Assembly: GCF_001953175.1 (NCBI RefSeq)
Contig: NZ_CP018258.1
Location: forward strand, 710,210-774,209
DNA from: Dehalogenimonas formicexedens
GTDB lineage: Bacteria; Chloroflexota; Dehalococcoidia; Dehalococcoidales; Dehalococcoidaceae
Length of the DNA: 64,000 nt
Direction of reading: 5' to 3'
Shown piece after piece: positions 39,360 to 60,628 of this stretch. The position numbers and the translations under genes were made by a program. The notes below the pieces were generated by a model that saw only the letters and a list, made by a program, of their open reading frames with translations, did no database searches and was not told where the DNA came from. The stretch's first letter is position 1, and every line of letters begins with the position of its first letter.

Positions 39360-42300
39360 TTAGCTTTGAGTCGGAAAAAGCACCCGGTCAATCATCCCTT
39401 GAATAGACGCCTGATCGAAGGGTTTGACAAGTACCTTCAAACGATGGCGGTCAATGAAGGTTTGGATATCATCCCCCAGCGCGTCGCCGGTAATGACAAC
39501 CACCCTGCCTTCGAATTCAGGCCGTTGCGAGATAATTTCACGATATAATGCCATGCCGCTGGTACCGGGCATCCTCAAGTCCATGAGAATGATGTCATAT
39601 TTGTTTGACCTTAGGAGTTCGAGTGCCTGCTGGGAATTGCCGGCTATATCGGCATAATGGTTTTGATCGGACAGCGACTGCCTTAATAATCGTTGAATCG
39701 AAATTTCGTCATCGACAACCAATACCCTGGCATGCGAGCTGGCGTGTTGGGGGAGGGCATTTGTTGATTCGAACAGGGCGTTTTCAGATTCCGCGTTCAG
39801 AGGCAGTTCAATGGTAAATGTCGCGCCGTGCCCCAATTCGCTGGCAATATCGATGGTCCCGCCGTGTTCCAGGATGATGGATCTCGAAATTGAAAGGCCC
39901 AGTCCGGTTCCTTCCCCGGGGTCCTTGGTGGTGAAAAATGGCTGGAACAGCTTGGGCAGGAGTTCGGGATCGATTCCTGGCCCGTTATCACTTACCTTAA
40001 CACGTAAATGATCCGTTGTTTTCTCTGCGGTGATTGTTATCACCCCGGGATGCCCGGTCTTCTTGATCGCATGTTCGGCATTGACGATTAAATTCAAGAG
40101 CACCTGCTGCAGTTGGCCGGGATCGGCTACAACCCAGGGAAGATCCGCCTGGTATTTTTTGACGACATCTATGCCGGCTGTTCGAAGGACGTAATTTCTC
40201 AGTTCGAGGGTATTATCGATAAGTTCGGTCACGCTCAGGCTCGTTTTGAAGGGTTTGGTCTGGCGGGCAAACGTCAACATCCGCTTAACGATCTCCGCTA
40301 CTCGTTTACTGCCATCGGCAATGACTTTGACTTCCTCCCTCAATTCATCGGGAAGGTCTTCGGATAGCATCAATTCGGCGTAGCCCAGAACGCCGGTGAG
40401 CGGGTTGTTGATTTCATGGGCGATGCCCGCGGCCATCTCCCCAACCGCGGCCAACCGGCTCGACAATTCCGCCTTTTCCTTTAATCTCTTTTGTTCGGCC
40501 TCGGCATTCTTGACCGCGGTGACATCTCGGGCAATATGTACATACCTGCCGGACGATTTTCCGTCAGTGTTAAGCGTGGAGATGTTAATCTGATATACGC
40601 TCCCGCATCTTGCCATCTCACTCCCGGGGCTGCAACCTTTGCCCACCGAAAGACCGGGACAGTTGATCGGCGGCGCCTCGGTGTTGTGCATCAGTTCGTA
40701 ACATTTTTTACCGATGGTCTGAGCCGGAGACAATCCCAATTTGTCAGCCATGGCGCGGTTGACCCTGATTATGTTGTGATTGGCATCTAAAATACAGATT
40801 AAGTCCGGGATAGAGTCGAAGGTGCTCTCCCACTCCTGCTTTGCATTGAGTATGGCCTGTTCATGGCGCCTGCGCTCGGATATATCTCGCTCGGCGATTA
40901 ATATGCCGTGTAATGAAACGGCGGCAACCGATGCCAAGCCTTGAATCAGGTAAAAATCAGAGCCGCTGAATTCCTGGCGCGATGTCTTTCCCGAAATGAA
41001 CAGTACGCCCACTTCTTTGTCGGCTGCGACCAGCGGTATCACGAAAGCTATTTCCGGATTCGGGTTTTCCCCGAGATTTGGGAATTCCTTTCCGACGTTC
41101 CGGCGCACAATAAGTCCAAGCAGTTCCTTTTGGCTGGAATCAGTTGAAAATATTCCCCTCGCCGCCCCGACCTCAAAGGAACCATTTTCGGTGGCAACGA
41201 AAAGGCAAGCCCCGGCCAGATTGAGCGCACTCACCGGTGCTTCGACGATCAGAGAAGACGCTACTTCTTTATCGTTCGTAGCGCTCAGTGATGTGCTCAG
41301 GTTTTGAATCGTTTTTCGATAATCGAAGCGGTCTTCATAAAATGCCTTATCTATTATGTTCTCGGCGAGGTTCTTTGTCGGGCCGAGCAAGAACACTGCC
41401 AGCGTGGAGAGCCCTAAAGCCAAAAGGAAGCGTTCAAATGCCCCCGAGGCTACCCCTCTGGAAAACACTAATGCGAAAGCCCCCCAAAGCACCACGGTCA
41501 GCGCAATGGTTACGGCAGCGTAGACGAAACTGCGGCGTATTACGATATCGATATCCAATAATTGCTTGGCAACCACAGCGTAACCCAGTGATAAGGGGAT
41601 GAACGAAAGGAAAGCCAACCCAATGTCTGAAGGCAGGACTATCGCTCCCGTCACGGCTGCCGGAATCGCGTTCAAGGCTATGAAAGGCACCAAGCCAAAA
41701 ATGCTGCCGATTAGCACGATTTTCATTTGTTGGCGGGTCCGAGGCAGGCGAGCGCGGACATAGTTATATATTGCGACGCCAACAACTCCAAGAAAACCCA
41801 AACCATAACTAAAGAGCCTAAACATTCGGAATTCGGGTAGGGGCTGACCATTAGAGTACCCAATTAACGGGTAAGCAATGATCGCAATCAATGGAATCAC
41901 ATATATAAGTAGCAAACGTGGGTCATTACGAATCGGAGTCCTTTCTTCCGGTAAAACAACGAAAAAGTGAAGTAACAACCATGGGCCAACGAGTGGTGCG
42001 ATTACACTGAAGTGCAATGCAGATGGGATTAAACGTTCCGCGGCTAGAGTTGAACCGAGCGCCAGAGACAGGACGACACCGCACAGAAGAAGTATAAGCG
42101 TCGCGTTGTTACGTGAACTCTTTGCGAAAATATATATCCCGGTTACAAAAAATGCTGCGCTCAACGCGAACCAGGTGGCGGTTTCGAAATAAGATATCCC
42201 AGGCTGAGGATCTGTATTTACATTTGAGGAAATTATCTGACCACTCGGGTTTATCACTTGAAGTTGCTCAACAAGCCTGAGTGTATTTATTGCTTGGTAT

Positions 42301-42581
42301 TTTTCCGATAATGCTTGGATCGGTTGACCATTGATTTGTAAGGGCACATCTCCGGGCTTAATCCCAGCCGAAAACGCTGCACCATGGGTATCGACACTCT
42401 CCACAACCCATTTATTTTGGGAGTGCGATATAACTACACCCATATACGGTTTAGTGATGGAGAGCGTAAAAAAAGTAAGGGACAACGCTAGAATGATAAA
42501 AGATATCAGAACTATAGTGGTATGAAAAGAACGATTGGACTTTACTTTTTTATTCATATTTATTGAAGCCGTAATTGTCAT
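39360..42581 (-). CDS. ComP-like hybrid sensor histidine kinase (TM-PDZ-7/8TM-GAF-PAS-HisKA-HATPase-REC)
   Basis: A 1073-residue protein. TM1 about 19-42; a PDZ-like domain about 45-112 on the outer face ('VESVDTHGAAFSAGIKPGD'); seven or eight further TM segments about 133-373; a GAF-like domain about 425-563; PAS about 580-690; HisKA with phospho-His722 ('AHEINNP'); HATPase with Asn834 and 'DNGPGID' 865-871; receiver with Asp957/958, phospho-Asp1001 and Lys1053. TM-PDZ-TM is the layout of Bacillus ComP, and the stretch near 311-372 ('AVVAKQLLDIDIVIRRSFVYAAVT') matches ComP as I remember it. ComP ends in a HisKA_3 kinase; this one does not. No DNA-binding output. Starts 8 nt after the comQ-like stop, with GAGGG. 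Confidence 0.85.
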   Translation of the reverse strand: MTITASINMNKKVKSNRSFHTTIVLISFIILALSLTFFTLSITKPYMGVVISHSQNKWVVESVDTHGAAFSAGIKPGDVPLQINGQPIQALSEKYQAINTLRLVEQLQVINPSGQIISSNVNTDPQPGISYFETATWFALSAAFFVTGIYIFAKSSRNNATLILLLCGVVLSLALGSTLAAERLIPSALHFSVIAPLVGPWLLLHFFVVLPEERTPIRNDPRLLLIYVIPLIAIIAYPLIGYSNGQPLPEFRMFRLFSYGLGFLGVVGVAIYNYVRARLPRTRQQMKIVLIGSIFGLVPFIALNAIPAAVTGAIVLPSDIGLAFLSFIPLSLGYAVVAKQLLDIDIVIRRSFVYAAVTIALTVVLWGAFALVFSRGVASGAFERFLLALGLSTLAVFLLGPTKNLAENIIDKAFYEDRFDYRKTIQNLSTSLSATNDKEVASSLIVEAPVSALNLAGACLFVATENGSFEVGAARGIFSTDSSQKELLGLIVRRNVGKEFPNLGENPNPEIAFVIPLVAADKEVGVLFISGKTSRQEFSGSDFYLIQGLASVAAVSLHGILIAERDISERRRHEQAILNAKQEWESTFDSIPDLICILDANHNIIRVNRAMADKLGLSPAQTIGKKCYELMHNTEAPPINCPGLSVGKGCSPGSEMARCGSVYQINISTLNTDGKSSGRYVHIARDVTAVKNAEAEQKRLKEKAELSSRLAAVGEMAAGIAHEINNPLTGVLGYAELMLSEDLPDELREEVKVIADGSKRVAEIVKRMLTFARQTKPFKTSLSVTELIDNTLELRNYVLRTAGIDVVKKYQADLPWVVADPGQLQQVLLNLIVNAEHAIKKTGHPGVITITAEKTTDHLRVKVSDNGPGIDPELLPKLFQPFFTTKDPGEGTGLGLSISRSIILEHGGTIDIASELGHGATFTIELPLNAESENALFESTNALPQHASSHARVLVVDDEISIQRLLRQSLSDQNHYADIAGNSQQALELLRSNKYDIILMDLRMPGTSGMALYREIISQRPEFEGRVVVITGDALGDDIQTFIDRHRLKVLVKPFDQASIQGMIDRVLFPTQS

Positions 42582-42589
42582 TCGAGCCC

Positions 42590-43552
42590 TCAATTTATGA
42601 AACAACTCAGAGGTGAAGTTGAAATTCCGAGGTTTTGGAGTTTAGGAATTATTTCTTTGGCATTTTCTTGATATAAGCTCATTTGGATGGAAGTATACTG
42701 CATCGCCCCAGAATTGAATAAAATGGCCTTGATCATTTCGCAATCACTATTGTTCGACGATTCCGTGATGTACGCATTTTTCAACGTTGCGATAGATTCT
42801 TTATCAGAATGGCGCAGGGCAAATAACAATGGAAGTGTAATTTTACGTTTGATAATATCATTGTTATTAGTTATTCCCTTTATGTCGTTGCTGATCTGTG
42901 CTGCTATCCCCAGGTTCCGCCCAAAGAGACATAACAAATCGATTATCCTTTCGTCTGCAGTGGACAAAGCGGCACCCGCGTAGCAACAGCATTCAATTTG
43001 AGATGCCGACTTGAGGTCTATCATATCGAAGTATGTTTTTTCGGTGCTATCCATGGATGTGTTTGATAAATCAAAATGCTGGCCGATGCAGGACTTTGTA
43101 AAATAGGAGTTGATTTGCTTTATTACTTTTGATACATCCAAAGGATCATTCCCTTTTGTTTTCAAGGAGGTCAATGCCGTCTCGCCTAAAATCAACATGG
43201 TTGTCGCTAGGTTGATTGCAAGGGGGATCCCATAAGTAAACGGTATTGAGTCTATTGCATCAGAGTCTTCAATGTCGTCAAACACATCCCCGGCAGCCAT
43301 TAGTAGTTGAATCGCCATAGCTGCTGGCGCGACATGTTCATATTTCCCAGAAATTGATTCAGCCACCGTTAATGGCAGTATCGGCCAAGGTTTTTGTGAT
43401 GTTGTGATAATAAGATCGTTTAACCGTGTAGAAAGTGCCTTCTTGATTGGTATAAACATATCTGGCATATTAACCAAAGGAGCTAGAATCTCTTCTAGCT
43501 CCTTTCTGAGCAAACCTGTTTTCTTATCGTGATTTGATGACAATGATTCCAT
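42590..43552 (-). CDS. ComQ-like isoprenyl diphosphate synthase / peptide prenyltransferase
   Basis: A 320-residue all-helical isoprenoid synthase. The first Asp-rich motif is 'DDIED' (92-96), but it is not followed by the Arg-Arg used by ordinary chain-elongating synthases. The second is reduced to 'SNDIKG' (221-226) with 'KRKITLPLLFAL' after it. Both features recall ComQ, which makes a farnesyl/geranyl donor and attaches it to the Trp of ComX. It is 21 bp after the small Trp-terminated peptide gene and 8 bp before the ComP-like kinase gene. It appears clearly AT-richer than the backbone, suggesting transfer. A plain polyprenyl synthase is the alternative. Confidence 0.75.
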   Translation of the reverse strand: MESLSSNHDKKTGLLRKELEEILAPLVNMPDMFIPIKKALSTRLNDLIITTSQKPWPILPLTVAESISGKYEHVAPAAMAIQLLMAAGDVFDDIEDSDAIDSIPFTYGIPLAINLATTMLILGETALTSLKTKGNDPLDVSKVIKQINSYFTKSCIGQHFDLSNTSMDSTEKTYFDMIDLKSASQIECCCYAGAALSTADERIIDLLCLFGRNLGIAAQISNDIKGITNNNDIIKRKITLPLLFALRHSDKESIATLKNAYITESSNNSDCEMIKAILFNSGAMQYTSIQMSLYQENAKEIIPKLQNLGISTSPLSCFIN

Positions 43553-43573
43553 TGCCTTTAATTATCTTCTAGT

Positions 43574-43783
43574 TTAAAACCACCCGGCCATCGGACCCAC
43601 ACTGGACTGCAGGGAAACACCATCTGCTGTAACCAAGCCGGTCTTTGCCTGAAGAGAAAGAACCGCGCGTTTCTCGGTCTCCGTCAAATTCATCGCAGAA
43701 ATGAACTTCTCGGGATCAGCCTGAAATTCCTTCTTGGTTTCCTCGCTGCTGAAGATCTTTTTTACCAGTTCGGCCAGCTCCAT
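43574..43783 (-). CDS. ComX-like pheromone precursor peptide (candidate)
   Basis: A 69-residue peptide. A charged helical leader (1-45, 'LVKKIFSSEETKKEF', 'DPEKFISAMNLTETEKRAV') is followed by a small-residue C-terminal segment ending 'SSVGPMAGWF', with its only Trp at position 68 of 69. ComX pheromones are cut from the C-terminus of a ~55-73-residue precursor and prenylated on a Trp near the end. Perfect Shine-Dalgarno AAGGAGG 7 nt from the ATG and a consensus promoter 30 bp further up show that it is expressed. First gene of the X-Q-P operon. The leader also resembles RiPP leaders. Confidence 0.65.
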   Translation of the reverse strand: MELAELVKKIFSSEETKKEFQADPEKFISAMNLTETEKRAVLSLQAKTGLVTADGVSLQSSVGPMAGWF

Positions 43784-43813
43784 CAATGATCCTCCTTCGC
43801 AAATTTGTTAAGG

Positions 43814-43842
43814 ATTATAAACTCATCATAACGTTTAGTCAA
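43814..43842 (-). promoter_or_regulatory. strong promoter of the ComX-ComQ-ComP-like operon
   Basis: Read on the minus strand: TTGACT (43837-43842), 17-bp spacer, TATAAT (43814-43819). Transcript start about 25 nt before the ATG at 43783. The only promoter-like signal before the three genes. Confidence 0.8.
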
Positions 43843-43958: not shown

Positions 43959-44008
43959 TGGTCGGGGTGGACGGATTTGAACCGTCGGCCACCTGAACCC
44001 CATTCAGG
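43959..44008 (-). repeat. att repeat: displaced 3' end of tRNA-Pro (left end of island)
   Basis: 50 bp identical to 60552-60601, the 3' part of tRNA-Pro(GGG) from the anticodon stem (nt 28) through CCA. It has no 5' half and is not a functional tRNA. Same orientation as the intact gene, so the two copies flank the island as direct repeats. Confidence 0.95.
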
Positions 44009-51042: not shown

Positions 51043-54000
51043 TCAACGGTTCAACAGCGAAGCTAATGCTACTAGCGTTTTTTCTTGAGTCTCTTCGTCC
51101 GAGGTGCGTTCCTGTACAAGTTCGAGTAATCTTGCGTCCCGCCCCTCGATAAACGACTGGAAGGAGGCTAGTGTTCTCGCGCATTCAAGGTCATCGTGTG
51201 GAACACGTACTAGACCACGCCTGCCTGTCTTAGTAAGTAGCACAATTAATTCTGCTTGTGACGCAGTCAGCGTAGGTATAAGGTTAACTTGGGACTTGGT
51301 CCCTTTCGTGAATTTGACTCCCTGGGGGACCAGCAGGTCAGAGTATTTTATGGCATCCCCCTCGGTAGGCAAGTCATACGAATCGAAGGGTTGGGAGTTA
51401 TCCAGGAAATCCACTTCATAACGGCGGAGAAGTTCCGGGTCATTTTTCGAGATATCTTCATAGATTTGAGATGCAATATCGGCTGGTCGGATACGCTCTC
51501 GCCTTCGGGCGGTATTCTTGTTGATAATAGCTTTCTCTTCTTTTTGCCGAGTAGCTTCAAAGAAGTGTCTAAGATAAGTGTATAGCTCGTCAATAATCTT
51601 ATCGCGTTGCTTTGGCGACTTAACCCCCACCATTTCAAGAACAGCGTCATCAAGGTCCCTTCGGTCAGGCATATCGAGTTCAGTTGCATCGGATAGACTA
51701 TCAAGTTCCTTGACCTTCCCCGCCCCGGTAAAGGCCATAGTGCGCAACCGCTTTTCTGATACGAAGGTAAGTGATTTACGGTCTTTCATAGATGCAAACG
51801 CCTGGCTAATTCTTTGGAGTTGGCTCCTGCTAGCAACTCTGATATCGGGAACAAGCATCATTTTTGCAGAATAAACATCCAGTTGAATATTACCCTCGTT
51901 ACCAAGAATTCGGGCAAAAAGTATGCGACTTAGAATTGATATCGTGCTATTCAATACAGCACATAAAGGGATAACCTGTTCTGCAGGTACGTTGTACAAA
52001 CCTAGAAGTGAACTACCAATATGAACCTGGGAGGGATTCAATATTGATAACAGTCGGTACTGTTGGATTTTTGGCAAGATAATATCCGCCCGCTTTGTTC
52101 TTGTTAAGTCATACCAAGTGCTTTCGGAAGTCGTTCTACCTGCGCAAGTTGGTTCTTTATGAATATTCTTTGATTCCCCCCAAAGAACGTACTTCAGAGC
52201 GGCTGTTCCTTTTAAGTCGGACTTATGTTTTGCTAATAATACAACCAGTCTGGAACAATCAGTGGGGGCGATAGTAAATCGTTCAACTCCCATAATATTA
52301 TGGAGTTCAGGTTCAGTATACTGTGCTTCTATGGGATGGATTTCACCCCGATGGTCACCACATTTAACTAGACGTATATGTCCAGACTCCACCCGTTCAC
52401 GCGGGACTCCGTAATTTCGGATGAATTCTGGTGGATTGTCATATTTTTTAAGACAATCAATGCTACAATCGACCGGGAAAAAGAAGCTATCTTTGCCGCT
52501 CGTTATCCCTCTATGTACAGTACTCATGTTACCGAGGGGAGTAAACAGTTTGCCATAAGAATCAATGAGATTGAACCATAAATCCGGTGCCCGAACATGA
52601 ATCCCCCATTTGCCGCCGTAATACTTGTTGTTGGAAAATCCGGCTTGGTTTTTTTGTTCTTCGTCTTCATCTTCACCATCGGATGAATCGAGATTACTCA
52701 TTAATGCCCCAAGTTCGACGCCTTGTTTCCAAAGGTCATGTTGCTTTACCAGCCTCGCGCGGTATCTTTCGTTTACGCCGTTTTCTGTGAGAGACATGAT
52801 TTCGTCGCGAAACCGGTCGACACTAGTGACAACTCCTGCAGATGTACCATCATGCGCCAATATCTCACCGATTGGTCGGCGCAGCTGAATAAAACGGACG
52901 AAGTTGTTTATCCGTTCGGTTTCATCAACTTCAGCTTGGAGACAGGTAATAGCCGTAGCTACTCTCGCACCCACAAACCAAGGCTCATCTAGGCTCTCGA
53001 AGATTGCCAAAATGCGAAAATTCTGTAGTATCCATTCCTGAAGACGGAACCCGTATTCCACGTCAAGCCATTGCGATGATGTTAATAAGCACAGGAAGCC
53101 ATTTTGCTTGAGAAAAGAGGCTGAATGAGGCCAAAAATAACAGTGAAGGTCGGCTCGACCCGAAAGAGTAATACCAACCTCGTTCTTCACGACTTGTTGG
53201 TAGTACTCTTTCGTCCCCGGCCGTGGTCCGCTTTTGGATTCTTTTTTGGTTTTAGGAATGTCTTCCTGTCTGACATAGGGCGGATTACTTATGACGGCAT
53301 CAAGGGGCGGTATTATAACGTCTCGACGTTTTCCGAGAGTTTTTGCTTCAACTCGTTTTGGAAGCGAAATAAAAGTCTTTTGCGCCGCGACATCGAAAAA
53401 GTCGCTTCGGGCAATCTGAGGATAGTTTTCCTCATCGATGAGGTCGCGTGTCGCAAGGTTGATGGTGGTTAAGTGTGTGGCAAAATGAGAAATATCGATA
53501 CCAAAAAGGTCTGCTAGAAGTTGGACATGTTTTCGAGCAGGTGCTAACTCCTTCTTACGAGCGTAAGCCCGTACTAGGAATGTACCGCCACCACAAGCTG
53601 GGTCCATGACCGTTTCTGTACCATCTCTTATACAAAAGCTGTTTATTAGGTCAACCACCTCGGCGCGGGTATAATATTTCCCGTATTTATGCCGTTCTTC
53701 CGGCGATATCAGTCTCTCGAAGATACGACCTATAACCTCATAGTCAATCTTGGAGAAATCAAACTTGTGTATCTGGTTGATAAGTTCACGCCAATGGACT
53801 GTGGCGCTGTCAGAATAAAAAGGAATCCGATTCTCAATAGCCTTGTGGTCTTCACCAAAAACAGTCTCGTAATCCCCTGTAATGGTCTTGGCTTGCGCAA
53901 AATAAGTCTCCAGGTGAAGTCTTAGCTGTTCTCCCGTGTCAATGTGGTCAGGAACGACCAACCTCGTTAATCTGGAGCTGTATCGTTTCAAGAGGGCTTC

Positions 54001-54723
54001 GTGGAAGACTAGTTTATTGACCAAAGCGTAACAGGCATATTTGGAGGCGCGTTCAAGGTTGTCATTGATTCCTTCCTGGTCGTCCAGGATTGTCCATCCT
54101 TCTTCGCGCATCCATTCATCGAGGTCTTTTTTGAAAGTGTGATTGGGGTAACGAGACAGTAGCACCTCAAACGTCATCATTATTGGCGTAAACAGGGCAG
54201 ACTCAAGTAAATCGATGAACCTTTCATCTGGTGGTTTGAATCCGATTGGAGCTGTGCCCCTGATAATATCCGTGAATTCAACAAGAAATCGGTCTATCCA
54301 GGTTTGGATTTCCATCCGTGTTGGTTCAATATCAAGTCTGCTCTCTTTGTAAACGGCGGTGACCAGCCATGAGCGATACTTTTCGCCATAAGATGTTGTC
54401 TTACCTGGCGTAGTTTCCCATAGAACAAATTCATTAACATTCCAGGTGAAAAAGAAACTGGCTCCGGCTTTAAGTGCTTTAGCCCGAGCGTCAGTGACAA
54501 CAGTGTCATTGTAGGGAGTACTTCCATCTTTGGCGTACGGGAGCTTTACTTCGCCAGTGAGGATTGGAATTTTGTTTTTATCGAGGAATGTTAAGTCTCG
54601 CCGTTTGGAAGAACCTTCACCCCTCTGTTCAACTCTAACTCCGGAAAACAATGACGAGGGGTTTTTATGGATGCGTTCGTTAAACCATCCGGCGGCTTCC
54701 CCGGTAAATTCCCACTCATTCAT
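51043..54723 (-). CDS. type IIG restriction-modification enzyme (N6-adenine methyltransferase fused to endonuclease)
   Basis: A 1226-residue single-chain enzyme. N-terminus with nuclease-type residues ('RRDLTFLDKN ... ILTGEVKLPYA', D-x(n)-ExK at about 43-60), a helical connector (150-340), the methyltransferase with SAM motif I 'MDPACGGGTFLVRA' (about 375) and catalytic 'ISNPPYVRQ' (about 460), then a target-recognition domain (about 700-950) and an unassigned C-terminus. Size and order fit type IIG/IIL or a BREX-PglX-like methylase; the N-terminal ExK favours self-contained restriction. No pglZ or brxC is near. ATG with GGAG 7 nt upstream. Confidence 0.85.
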   Translation of the reverse strand: MNEWEFTGEAAGWFNERIHKNPSSLFSGVRVEQRGEGSSKRRDLTFLDKNKIPILTGEVKLPYAKDGSTPYNDTVVTDARAKALKAGASFFFTWNVNEFVLWETTPGKTTSYGEKYRSWLVTAVYKESRLDIEPTRMEIQTWIDRFLVEFTDIIRGTAPIGFKPPDERFIDLLESALFTPIMMTFEVLLSRYPNHTFKKDLDEWMREEGWTILDDQEGINDNLERASKYACYALVNKLVFHEALLKRYSSRLTRLVVPDHIDTGEQLRLHLETYFAQAKTITGDYETVFGEDHKAIENRIPFYSDSATVHWRELINQIHKFDFSKIDYEVIGRIFERLISPEERHKYGKYYTRAEVVDLINSFCIRDGTETVMDPACGGGTFLVRAYARKKELAPARKHVQLLADLFGIDISHFATHLTTINLATRDLIDEENYPQIARSDFFDVAAQKTFISLPKRVEAKTLGKRRDVIIPPLDAVISNPPYVRQEDIPKTKKESKSGPRPGTKEYYQQVVKNEVGITLSGRADLHCYFWPHSASFLKQNGFLCLLTSSQWLDVEYGFRLQEWILQNFRILAIFESLDEPWFVGARVATAITCLQAEVDETERINNFVRFIQLRRPIGEILAHDGTSAGVVTSVDRFRDEIMSLTENGVNERYRARLVKQHDLWKQGVELGALMSNLDSSDGEDEDEEQKNQAGFSNNKYYGGKWGIHVRAPDLWFNLIDSYGKLFTPLGNMSTVHRGITSGKDSFFFPVDCSIDCLKKYDNPPEFIRNYGVPRERVESGHIRLVKCGDHRGEIHPIEAQYTEPELHNIMGVERFTIAPTDCSRLVVLLAKHKSDLKGTAALKYVLWGESKNIHKEPTCAGRTTSESTWYDLTRTKRADIILPKIQQYRLLSILNPSQVHIGSSLLGLYNVPAEQVIPLCAVLNSTISILSRILFARILGNEGNIQLDVYSAKMMLVPDIRVASRSQLQRISQAFASMKDRKSLTFVSEKRLRTMAFTGAGKVKELDSLSDATELDMPDRRDLDDAVLEMVGVKSPKQRDKIIDELYTYLRHFFEATRQKEEKAIINKNTARRRERIRPADIASQIYEDISKNDPELLRRYEVDFLDNSQPFDSYDLPTEGDAIKYSDLLVPQGVKFTKGTKSQVNLIPTLTASQAELIVLLTKTGRRGLVRVPHDDLECARTLASFQSFIEGRDARLLELVQERTSDEETQEKTLVALASLLNR

Positions 54724-59444: not shown

Positions 59445-60440
59445 TCACTTGAGTTTCATCATATCTGCCGGGCTTGATTTTCGATGCGCCTCAATCGCAT
59501 CTTGCATCCCCAAAGCCGAGGTATAGCGTCTTACCATATCTAAGTCAGAGTGACCGAGCAGATATTGAAGGTTAAAAACATTTTTGTCGGCACGGAGGAA
59601 ATTCAGGGCAAACGAATGCCGGAAGCGGTGCACGTTCCCTGAACCTTTCACACCAGCCCTCTTTTTGAGGCTTTCAATCGCACTTTGAATACCCCTGAGA
59701 GCCATGGGCTGACTCTCTTCAGTAAGCCAAAGGTCCGTGCATTGGACGCCGGGGCGAAACATTAGATATTTCCACAAGGCTTTTCTAGCAGTAACTCCCA
59801 GATGGCAAAAGCGTTGTTTATCACCCTTGCCAGTCACCTTGAATTCACCGGTTTGCGAATTCACATCATCTAGGCGCATTCCAGCCATTTCAGAAAGCCT
59901 AATACCAGAGTCGAGAAATACCAACAATAGTGCCCTATTGCGACTTCCAAGGAATTTAGCTCCACAACCAAAATCCTGGTCACAGACTGCCAACATATGA
60001 TTCATTTCCTCGGGTGAATAGGGGGTAATGACCTTCGGCTTGGGTTTGTTTACCTTGATTTTGGCCATCGGTGATTCTGAAAGAAACCCTTCAGCCACCA
60101 CCCAGTTGAAAAAACAGGACAATACGACATAATAATGTCTGACAGTTGCTTGACTAGCGGGGAGTTTGGATGTCTGACTTTCAGTTCCTGTCAGACCCCA
60201 GCGGTCTTTAGCGGAACCGACATAGGCTAAGAACTGCTTAACTTGCCATTGGGTGATGAGCCTGATGTCGTCGCTGAACTGTTGTTGGTCGCAGTACCAG
60301 AGAAAACGGCGTAAATTATCATGGTAATACGAGACGGTCTTTGGACTTTTTCCTTCGGATTGTTTGGTGATGACAAAGTAGGCCGCTAGTGATTTGAGCG
60401 ATTGCCCCAAAGGGACTCCCACTTTAAGCTCGGTATCCAT
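59445..60440 (-). CDS. tyrosine-type site-specific integrase of the island
   Basis: A 331-residue phage-type integrase: SAM-like core-binding N-terminus (about 10-130), then the catalytic domain with Arg in 'SGIRLSEMAGM', Lys in 'TGKGDKQRF', 'HRFRHSFALNFL', 'LLGHSDLDMV' and the tyrosine in 'RRYTSALGM'. It lies 112 bp from the intact tRNA-Pro 3' end and points away from it, the usual place for the integrase of a tRNA-targeted element. It should catalyse recombination between the two 50-bp tRNA repeats. The housekeeping Xer at 3291 is a separate branch. Confidence 0.93.
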   Translation of the reverse strand: MDTELKVGVPLGQSLKSLAAYFVITKQSEGKSPKTVSYYHDNLRRFLWYCDQQQFSDDIRLITQWQVKQFLAYVGSAKDRWGLTGTESQTSKLPASQATVRHYYVVLSCFFNWVVAEGFLSESPMAKIKVNKPKPKVITPYSPEEMNHMLAVCDQDFGCGAKFLGSRNRALLLVFLDSGIRLSEMAGMRLDDVNSQTGEFKVTGKGDKQRFCHLGVTARKALWKYLMFRPGVQCTDLWLTEESQPMALRGIQSAIESLKKRAGVKGSGNVHRFRHSFALNFLRADKNVFNLQYLLGHSDLDMVRRYTSALGMQDAIEAHRKSSPADMMKLK

Positions 60441-60551: not shown

Positions 60552-60601
60552 TGGTCGGGGTGGACGGATTTGAACCGTCGGCCACCTGAACCCCATTCAG
60601 G
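60552..60601 (-). repeat. att repeat within tRNA-Pro (right end of island)
   Basis: The 50-bp segment identical to 43959-44008. It rebuilds the 3' part of tRNA-Pro(GGG), so integration did not break the tRNA. Identity ends at the anticodon stem (G/T difference after 60601). Confidence 0.95.
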
Positions 60602-60628
60602 TGCGCTACCAGGCTGCGCTACACCCCG
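60552..60628 (-). tRNA. tRNA-Pro (anticodon GGG)
   Basis: 77-nt tRNA with encoded CCA. Acceptor CGGGGTG/CACCCCG, anticodon stem CCTGA/TCAGG with loop ATGGGGT, T-loop GTTCAAATC. Host site of the island. Confidence 0.97.

Follow-up and report, generated by a model that had tools for sequence, protein, structure and literature searches.

ComQXPA, the prenylated-peptide signaling system of Bacillus subtilis and its relatives, has so far been treated as a Firmicutes system, and a 2014 census recorded no comQXPA-like locus in any other phylum (PMC4008528). The same source, Dogsa et al. 2014, describes unusual com-like loci in Bacillus, Lysinibacillus and Paenibacillus, in which a precursor without appreciable homology to ComX except for a C-terminal Trp lies beside comQ and comP; the text consulted mentions neither an NHLP leader nor a hybrid kinase or HD-GYP output for them (PMC4008528). 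A further precedent is PalP-PalX-PalQ of Paenibacillus alvei, which combines a histidine kinase, an NHLP-type precursor and a trans-isoprenyl diphosphate synthase (trans-IDS)-like Trp prenyltransferase. PalQ prenylates the C-terminal Trp of PalX with dimethylallyl, geranyl or farnesyl diphosphate (DMAPP, GPP or FPP), the PalX leader improves this reaction, and a similarity network separates PalQ from ComQ (PMC10853753). Here we analyze a stretch of 64,000 nucleotides from Dehalogenimonas formicexedens (phylum Chloroflexota, class Dehalococcoidia; hereafter the window), in which three consecutive genes, X, Q and P, are likely to encode a self-contained prenylated-peptide signaling system of the ComQXP type. 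Besides ComQXP itself, PalP-PalX-PalQ is the nearest precedent.

All three genes lie on the minus strand of the window and are transcribed in the order X, Q, P, with the following features:

43814..43842, minus strand: sigma-70-like promoter TTGACT-17-TATAAT, 11/12 matches, from a consensus scan only
43574..43783, minus strand: X, precursor peptide of 69 aa, an open reading frame with an NHLP-class leader and the C-terminus ...GPMAGWF
43580..43582, minus strand: codon of Trp68 of X, the predicted prenylation site, an invariant alignment column
42590..43552, minus strand: Q, ComQ-like predicted tryptophan prenyltransferase (trans-IDS fold) of 320 aa, from the open reading frame, hhalign, the tree and a structure model
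43265..43279, minus strand: first aspartate-rich motif (FARM) of Q, DDIED, residues 92–96, with no Arg after it
42875..42898, minus strand: degenerate second aspartate-rich motif (SARM) of Q, QISNDIKG, residues 219–226, from alignment with ComQ
39360..42605, minus strand: P, ComP-like sensor with hybrid histidine kinase, 1081 aa from TTG
41385..42518, minus strand: sensor region of P, 10 hydrophobic segments, from hydropathy alone
42279..42449, minus strand: PDZ domain of P, residues 53–109, between transmembrane (TM) segments TM1 and TM2 (PF13180, 4.9e-6)
40260..40445, minus strand: HisKA (PF00512) phospho-acceptor domain of P, residues 721–782, with His730 in HEINNP
39795..40124, minus strand: HATPase_c domain of P, residues 828–937 (1e-29)
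39390..39725, minus strand: C-terminal receiver domain of P, residues 961–1072 (3.1e-20)

X has the sequence MELAELVKKIFSSEETKKEFQADPEKFISAMNLTETEKRAVLSLQAKTGLVTADGVSLQSSVGPMAGWF and starts at an ATG at 43783 with AAGGAGG just 5' of it, an alternative TTG form being one codon longer (70 aa). For P, the ATG at 42581, which GAGG precedes, is a likelier start than the TTG at 42605; it would give 1073 aa and does not require P to overlap with Q. Gene spacing and the promoter suggest that X, Q and P are expressed as one operon, and a closely similar promoter-like site (TTGACG-17-TATAAT) lies upstream of X in the related locus L005. The host genome is a single contig of 2.09 Mb. A preliminary description of the window had reported a promoter, a 69-residue peptide ending in Gly-Trp-Phe and a synthase with ComQ-like Asp motifs; all three reading frames lie where it had placed them, a promoter-like site was located, and both motifs, DDIED without a following Arg and NDIKG within QISNDIKG, were confirmed.

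A profile comparison with hhalign aligns Q and ComQ over 239 columns with 99.9% probability and 30% identity, the window Q being 21–27% identical to individual ComQs, and both share the motifs DDxED, GQHxDL and QxxND. A maximum-likelihood tree was built from 65 rows, and one of its branches (100/99) sets 26 synthases apart from the 27 ComQs of Bacilli and 12 Qs of Chloroflexota. Q thus joins ComQ and does not cluster with chain-elongating synthases; such clustering would, by the preliminary description, have refuted its reading. The Bacilli ComQs form one group (99/95) with no Chloroflexota row within it. When the synthases serve as outgroup, the Qs of Chloroflexota branch deeper and are paraphyletic (98/85), owing to L076, a long row that stands alone and comes from an assembly with 9% contamination; as the paraphyly rests on this row, it is read as a hint about the root. 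These comparisons show a common origin of Q and ComQ.

The SARM reads QxxND, not QxxDDxxD, in the Dehalococcoidia Qs and in the aligned ComQs, with two of three Asp residues gone from Q, while Gln219, Asn222 and Asp223 of Q are invariant in the alignment with ComQ. The GKxxR(P) motif is missing from every Q and ComQ row and present in the synthases of the host genome, of other Chloroflexota and of Bacillus. Likewise, the Arg that follows the FARM is missing from every Q and ComQ row and present in those synthases in which the first Asp motif was recognized, a comparison that leaves aside the IspA-type rows, where the pattern did not pick it out. The loss of these motifs, which bind isopentenyl diphosphate (IPP), suggests that Q does not use IPP. 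Fold and FARM are common to Q and the trans-isoprenyl diphosphate synthases that make FPP, GGPP (geranylgeranyl diphosphate) or polyprenyl chains, from which Q differs in being without the IPP-binding motifs: Q matches Pfam polyprenyl_synt (8.1e-25), and its structure model (predicted local distance difference test, pLDDT, 84.8) adopts the trans-IDS fold; the top PDB matches are GGPP synthases, and Ord1 is among the nearest. The Gln before the SARM, considered here as a mark of Trp prenyltransferases (PMC13290415), was not used as evidence, because ordinary synthases often carry one at this place as well. Ord1, which is among the solved structures nearest to the Q model, farnesylates free Trp (PMC13290415).

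Comparison with L005 shows that X encodes a protein and is subject to purifying selection: codon changes are distributed 8/4/30 over positions 1/2/3, and 25 codons differ synonymously against 10 non-synonymously. A search of 156 genomes of the order with an X profile recovered X at E < 1e-24 in 14, the next matches being no better than 8e-6, and this clean gap indicates that X is not a chance reading frame. Four residues, Pro24, Leu33, Ala40 and Trp68 in the numbering of the window X, do not vary among the 14 precursors that were aligned. The Trp68 column holds 4.32 bits, compared with 1.4–1.5 in the two preceding columns and up to 2.0 in the one that follows. Among the homologues the Trp occupies one of the last one to seven positions, mostly −2, in C-termini as different as GWF, GWL, TWS, DWSAPEP, PWWAPEP, NWL, YWL, FWM, FWL, GGW, WWWS, LWL and EWT, and it is the very last residue in L042 alone among the 14. 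As judged from the alignment, a fixed Trp within a variable core is the same pattern as in ComX pherotypes.

The leader assigns X to a known class of ribosomally synthesized and post-translationally modified peptides (RiPPs). All 14 members match NCBIfam NF038399 (Os1348 NHLP clan) at E ≤ 0.1, the best at 5.9e-12; the window X, at E 0.0087 and below the curated cut-off, is a weak member of the clan. Three members match Pfam Frankia_peptide (best 6.7e-9) and six match leader_NHLP, and by these profile matches the X leader is of the NHLP RiPP class. The structure model of X is too weak for use (pLDDT 65.8) and its PDB matches, DesB, a LigAB-type enzyme, and the RiPP precursor SonA, are not significant (all E > 1); they agree with an NHLP/LigA-like helical leader.

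The N-terminal 430 residues of P align with ComP over 410 columns at 99.7% probability and 22% identity (hhalign, pairwise E 1.7e-25, a value that refers to a single pair). P has a first hydrophobic segment at residues 30–48 and nine more over residues 143–407, as read from hydropathy, with a PDZ domain between the first two that is predicted to be extracytoplasmic; the ComP of B. spizizenii (L047) also has 10 hydrophobic segments with similar spacing, and the ComPs of L045 and L047 have a PDZ domain at the same place. By this alignment and layout the P sensor shares its origin with the ComP sensor over its full length (TM, PDZ, nine TMs), which bears out the TM-PDZ-multiTM sensor of the preliminary description. 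Within the order the P sensor is nearly private to the locus: a full-length sensor (E ≤ 5e-148) occurs in 13 of 156 genomes, in 12 of them within an X-Q-P locus, and all other matches score below 70 bits and cover the model partially, mostly its last 100 positions.

The output of P is variable. The hybrid HisKA-HATPase-receiver arrangement expected from the earlier reading holds in the window, and in L037, L039 and L040; it is one of three output types, as L034, L035, L036, L038, L197 and L199 have a plain HisKA-HATPase output and L042 and L043 have, in place of the kinase, an HD-GYP domain with intact HD and GYP motifs. In the latter two (L042:6955-9363 and L043:6834-9080) the ComP-like sensor is fused to GAF and HD-GYP domains beside X and Q; judged by their domains, these fusions are possible receptors linking a prenylated peptide to cyclic-di-GMP. 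The recurrent regulator is an HTH_17-receiver protein, whose gene immediately precedes X in three loci (L038, L105 and L107) and in L197 lies upstream of P, the HTH_17 domain being assigned by Pfam for L038 alone; a copy of the protein, 57% identical, is encoded elsewhere in the host genome (G000:C1:514012), where it is a candidate partner of P by sequence. Furthermore, a type-1 IPP isomerase above NCBIfam cut-offs is encoded behind P and a receiver protein in L036 (4371-4922) and L038 (9775-10341); an isomerase supplying DMAPP fits a locus that uses a prenyl donor.

Searches were made in samples of genomes. The X-Q-P locus is present in about 19 Dehalococcoidia genomes (G000, G003, G004, G007, G013, G034, G044, G064, G085, G086, G093, G096, G107, G117, G131, G138, G304, G817 and G841), and in every locus with enough contig Q is immediately preceded by X and immediately followed by P; those of G085, G096, G131 and G093 are cut by contig ends, G093 starting within X. 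Related genomes that carry Q and P without X were sought, and none was found where the contig allows the check. Among 101 genomes, the host and its relatives, orthologues of Q at E < 1e-30 occur in ten besides the host. A search of the class at the same threshold returned 201 genomes, mostly with ordinary synthases, from which the members were separated by score and neighbors. A search of the phylum with the Q profile, made in a sample of 400 genomes, found members scoring above about 200 bits within the class and none elsewhere; this threshold would miss divergent Qs. In a scan of 84,980 genomes, which used one peptide pattern, D[VI]FDD[ILV]ED, and is thus biased and not exhaustive, the Q profile found solely Bacillus and Metabacillus comQ loci outside Chloroflexota. 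In the window's genus X occurs in four of eight genomes, in the other genus of the family in none of three, and in G003 an insertion with a transposase-like gene breaks Q and the start of P.

We propose the following mechanism. Q would bind the NHLP-class leader of X, take an allylic diphosphate, probably GPP or FPP, at its FARM, and move the prenyl group onto the indole of the single conserved C-terminal Trp (Trp68), which the degenerate SARM pocket would hold in place of IPP. Leader-guided prenylation of Trp68 is suggested by the homology to ComQ, the motif loss, the linkage of X and Q, and the PalX-PalQ precedent. Proteases and an exporter encoded elsewhere would then trim and release a short prenylated C-terminal peptide (core ...GPMAGWF in the window); for ComX, too, trimming and export are not established (PMC4008528). 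Either outside the cell or within the outer leaflet of the membrane, the released peptide would bind to P at its PDZ and multi-TM sensor, a role for which the homology to ComP argues. Binding would switch the output of P, a hybrid HisKA phosphorelay in the window; among relatives the output is either an HD-GYP domain or a plain HisKA kinase that has response regulators nearby. We infer the prenylation chemistry, the chain length, the export, the identity of the ligand and the cell-to-cell purpose from sequence comparison.

Several observations weigh against this reading. Pfam ComX (PF05952) is not matched by the window X (E ≤ 1) nor by the 14 members, whereas it does match the Bacillus ComX in L045, and the X profile has no hhalign match to a Bacillus/Metabacillus ComX profile. 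Against a broader ComX profile that includes precursors of Paenibacillaceae and other Bacilli, the match is weak (score 19.4, probability 13.9%); it is co-linear over 48 columns, and 100 column shuffles reached at most 17.9, so the leaders of X and ComX may have a distant common origin. PalQ accepts a strictly terminal Trp alone (PMC10853753), whereas the Trp of X is mostly at −2 and up to −7, a placement closer to ComX than to PalX. The window operon contains no transporter, protease or DNA-binding regulator, and no Pfam Hpt was found in the host genome, so that the hybrid receiver would have to pass on its signal in some other way. Finally, genome G047 (L197) has P and an HTH-receiver gene with no X or Q beside P, and genome G798, which is without a full-length P, has X and an HTH-receiver gene with no Q in the stretch read. 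The P of G047 could be an orphan receptor that listens without signaling, or part of a decaying locus; we infer that the departures in G003, G047 and G798 and the patchy presence within the genus are losses.

A different function for the same genes is improbable, though it is the strongest of the alternatives to signaling. Lantibiotic systems sense their own product for autoregulation or self-protection, and the product of X and Q could similarly be a prenylated RiPP that serves mainly some end other than communication, for instance as an antimicrobial or membrane-active peptide, with P sensing it for autoregulation or self-protection. The NHLP-class leader of X agrees with this, as does the description of PalX as a RiPP in a study in which the neighboring kinase PalP was not studied (PMC10853753). 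However, no recurrent immunity, transporter or protease gene was seen at the loci when they were read by eye, and the P sensor is homologous to ComP, a pheromone receptor. Fusion of the sensor to HD-GYP in L042 and L043 would be an odd choice for autoregulation, and the retention of a receptor without X or Q in G047 is sensible for a shared signal.

A recent horizontal transfer of the locus from Bacilli, which would leave its presence in Chloroflexota without deeper meaning, is less probable still. It would explain the patchy presence in the window's genus, the insertion in G003 and the base composition of Q, which alone stands out as AT-rich (40% G+C, compared with 51% for X, 49% for P and 52% for the whole window). 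A recent transfer is at odds with the tree, in which all 27 Bacilli ComQs form a group of their own and the Chloroflexota Qs a deeper, paraphyletic set (the latter resting on L076), with the low identity of the window Q to ComQ, and with a leader class that differs from that of Bacilli ComX. The idea that Q is an ordinary short-chain isoprenyl diphosphate or terpene synthase, X an unrelated small protein and P a sensor of some other ligand draws on the Pfam match, the fold and the GGPP synthases among the PDB matches, and is very improbable given that Q has lost GKxxRP, the post-FARM Arg and two SARM Asp residues, that the tree places it with ComQ, that X with its invariant Trp adjoins it in every readable locus, and that the host genome already has two normal isoprenyl synthases (L001 and L002).

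Set beside ComQXPA, the prenylated-peptide system proposed here has the same motif losses in a ComQ homologue, a sensor homologous over its full TM-PDZ-9TM length, a small precursor whose variable core holds one Trp close to the C-terminus, and tight gene linkage. It differs in phylum, in gene order (X-Q-P, not Q-X-P-A), in an NHLP-class leader that is not Pfam ComX, the leader sequence having been listed as a difference before, and in its hybrid HisKA, HisKA or HD-GYP outputs, the kinase core HisKA_3 (PF07730) being present in ComP and not in P. There is also no adjacent ComA, a point made earlier for the window that extends to the other loci, at which no LuxR-type regulator was seen adjacent. 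A Trp at −2, given as a further difference, describes the window and most homologues and fails for those with a Trp up to −7 and for L042, which ends in Trp. The ComQXP-type label of the preliminary description is apt for Q and P, homologous to ComQ and ComP, and less so for X, which is not Pfam ComX and has a leader of the PalX-like class, a precedent absent from that description. Compared with PalP-PalX-PalQ, the differences are the Trp at the very C-terminus that PalQ requires and the grouping of the window Q with ComQ; PalQ and PalP were compared by description, not by sequence.

Q-X-P loci are common in Bacilli, where Q exceeds 150 bits in 30 of 349 sampled genomes and most loci read have X and P adjacent. 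Of 199 genomes in the Paenibacillaceae-like family to which genome G1146 belongs, 90 have a ComP-type sensor match (E ≤ 1e-15). Members of these Paenibacillaceae-like Bacilli (L206-L235) often have at least one Q-X-P locus, with a precursor of the form ...QLAGVSxxEHKAL... and a Trp within the last residues, and such loci are seemingly far more numerous than the 2014 census lists. PalX was not recognizable among 30 Paenibacillaceae loci inspected via the sensor search, which mostly have the order Q-X-P and ComX-like leaders. Three loci of Bacilli (L164, L165 and L166) have the order X-Q-P and short, un-ComX-like precursors ending in KWV, LWV and QWL, and their Qs branch off deep within the Bacilli group of the tree. 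The X-Q-P order, considered as a diagnostic of the Chloroflexota group, was therefore rejected as such; the order first noted in the window stands, and it is not peculiar to this group.

The operon most likely follows the scheme known from ComQXP, in which a small Trp-ended peptide is made, prenylated and sensed; it departs from ComQXP in phylum, in precursor class and, in some species, in the HD-GYP output. The novelty of a ComQXP system in Chloroflexota, suggested when the window was first read, agrees with our search of the literature and with the 2014 census (PMC4008528): no paper joining ComQ with Dehalococcoidia was found in a search that left most subscription papers outside, nor was a description of a prenyl-peptide/HD-GYP signal route found when ComX was searched with HD-GYP. 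If true, the system would be the first candidate peptide quorum-sensing circuit known to us in Dehalococcoidia, the class of the organohalide-respiring Dehalogenimonas, and would place a relative of ComQXPA in another phylum. In the HD-GYP receptors, a single protein would couple a prenylated pheromone to cyclic-di-GMP, and the new Qs, as ComQ homologues with a different leader class, may inform how a prenyl-chain synthase became a peptide-modifying enzyme. We give roughly even chances to the broader reading that prenyl-Trp peptide signaling is old and modular and existed in Chloroflexota before, or independently of, Bacilli, with one type of Q and receptor joined to differing precursors (NHLP or ComX) and outputs, including an HD-GYP receptor that turns a prenylated peptide directly into a change in cyclic-di-GMP.

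The locus borders on an island at tRNA-Pro. The 3' half of tRNA-Pro(GGG) recurs as a perfect direct repeat of 50 bp at 43959-44008, and the intact tRNA copy lies at 60552-60628, next to a gene that by eye resembles a tyrosine recombinase (59445-60440); the tRNA-Pro repeats bound an integrated element of ~16.6 kb. X-Q-P, considered as cargo of this island, was rejected as such, as it lies just outside the repeats and beside the same tRNA in genomes G007 and G003, in which the intact tRNA is directly upstream of X. Within the element, positions 51043-54723 encode a 1226-aa methyltransferase-like protein with an NPPY motif, by eye of type IIG or BREX-like, which possibly serves phage defense.

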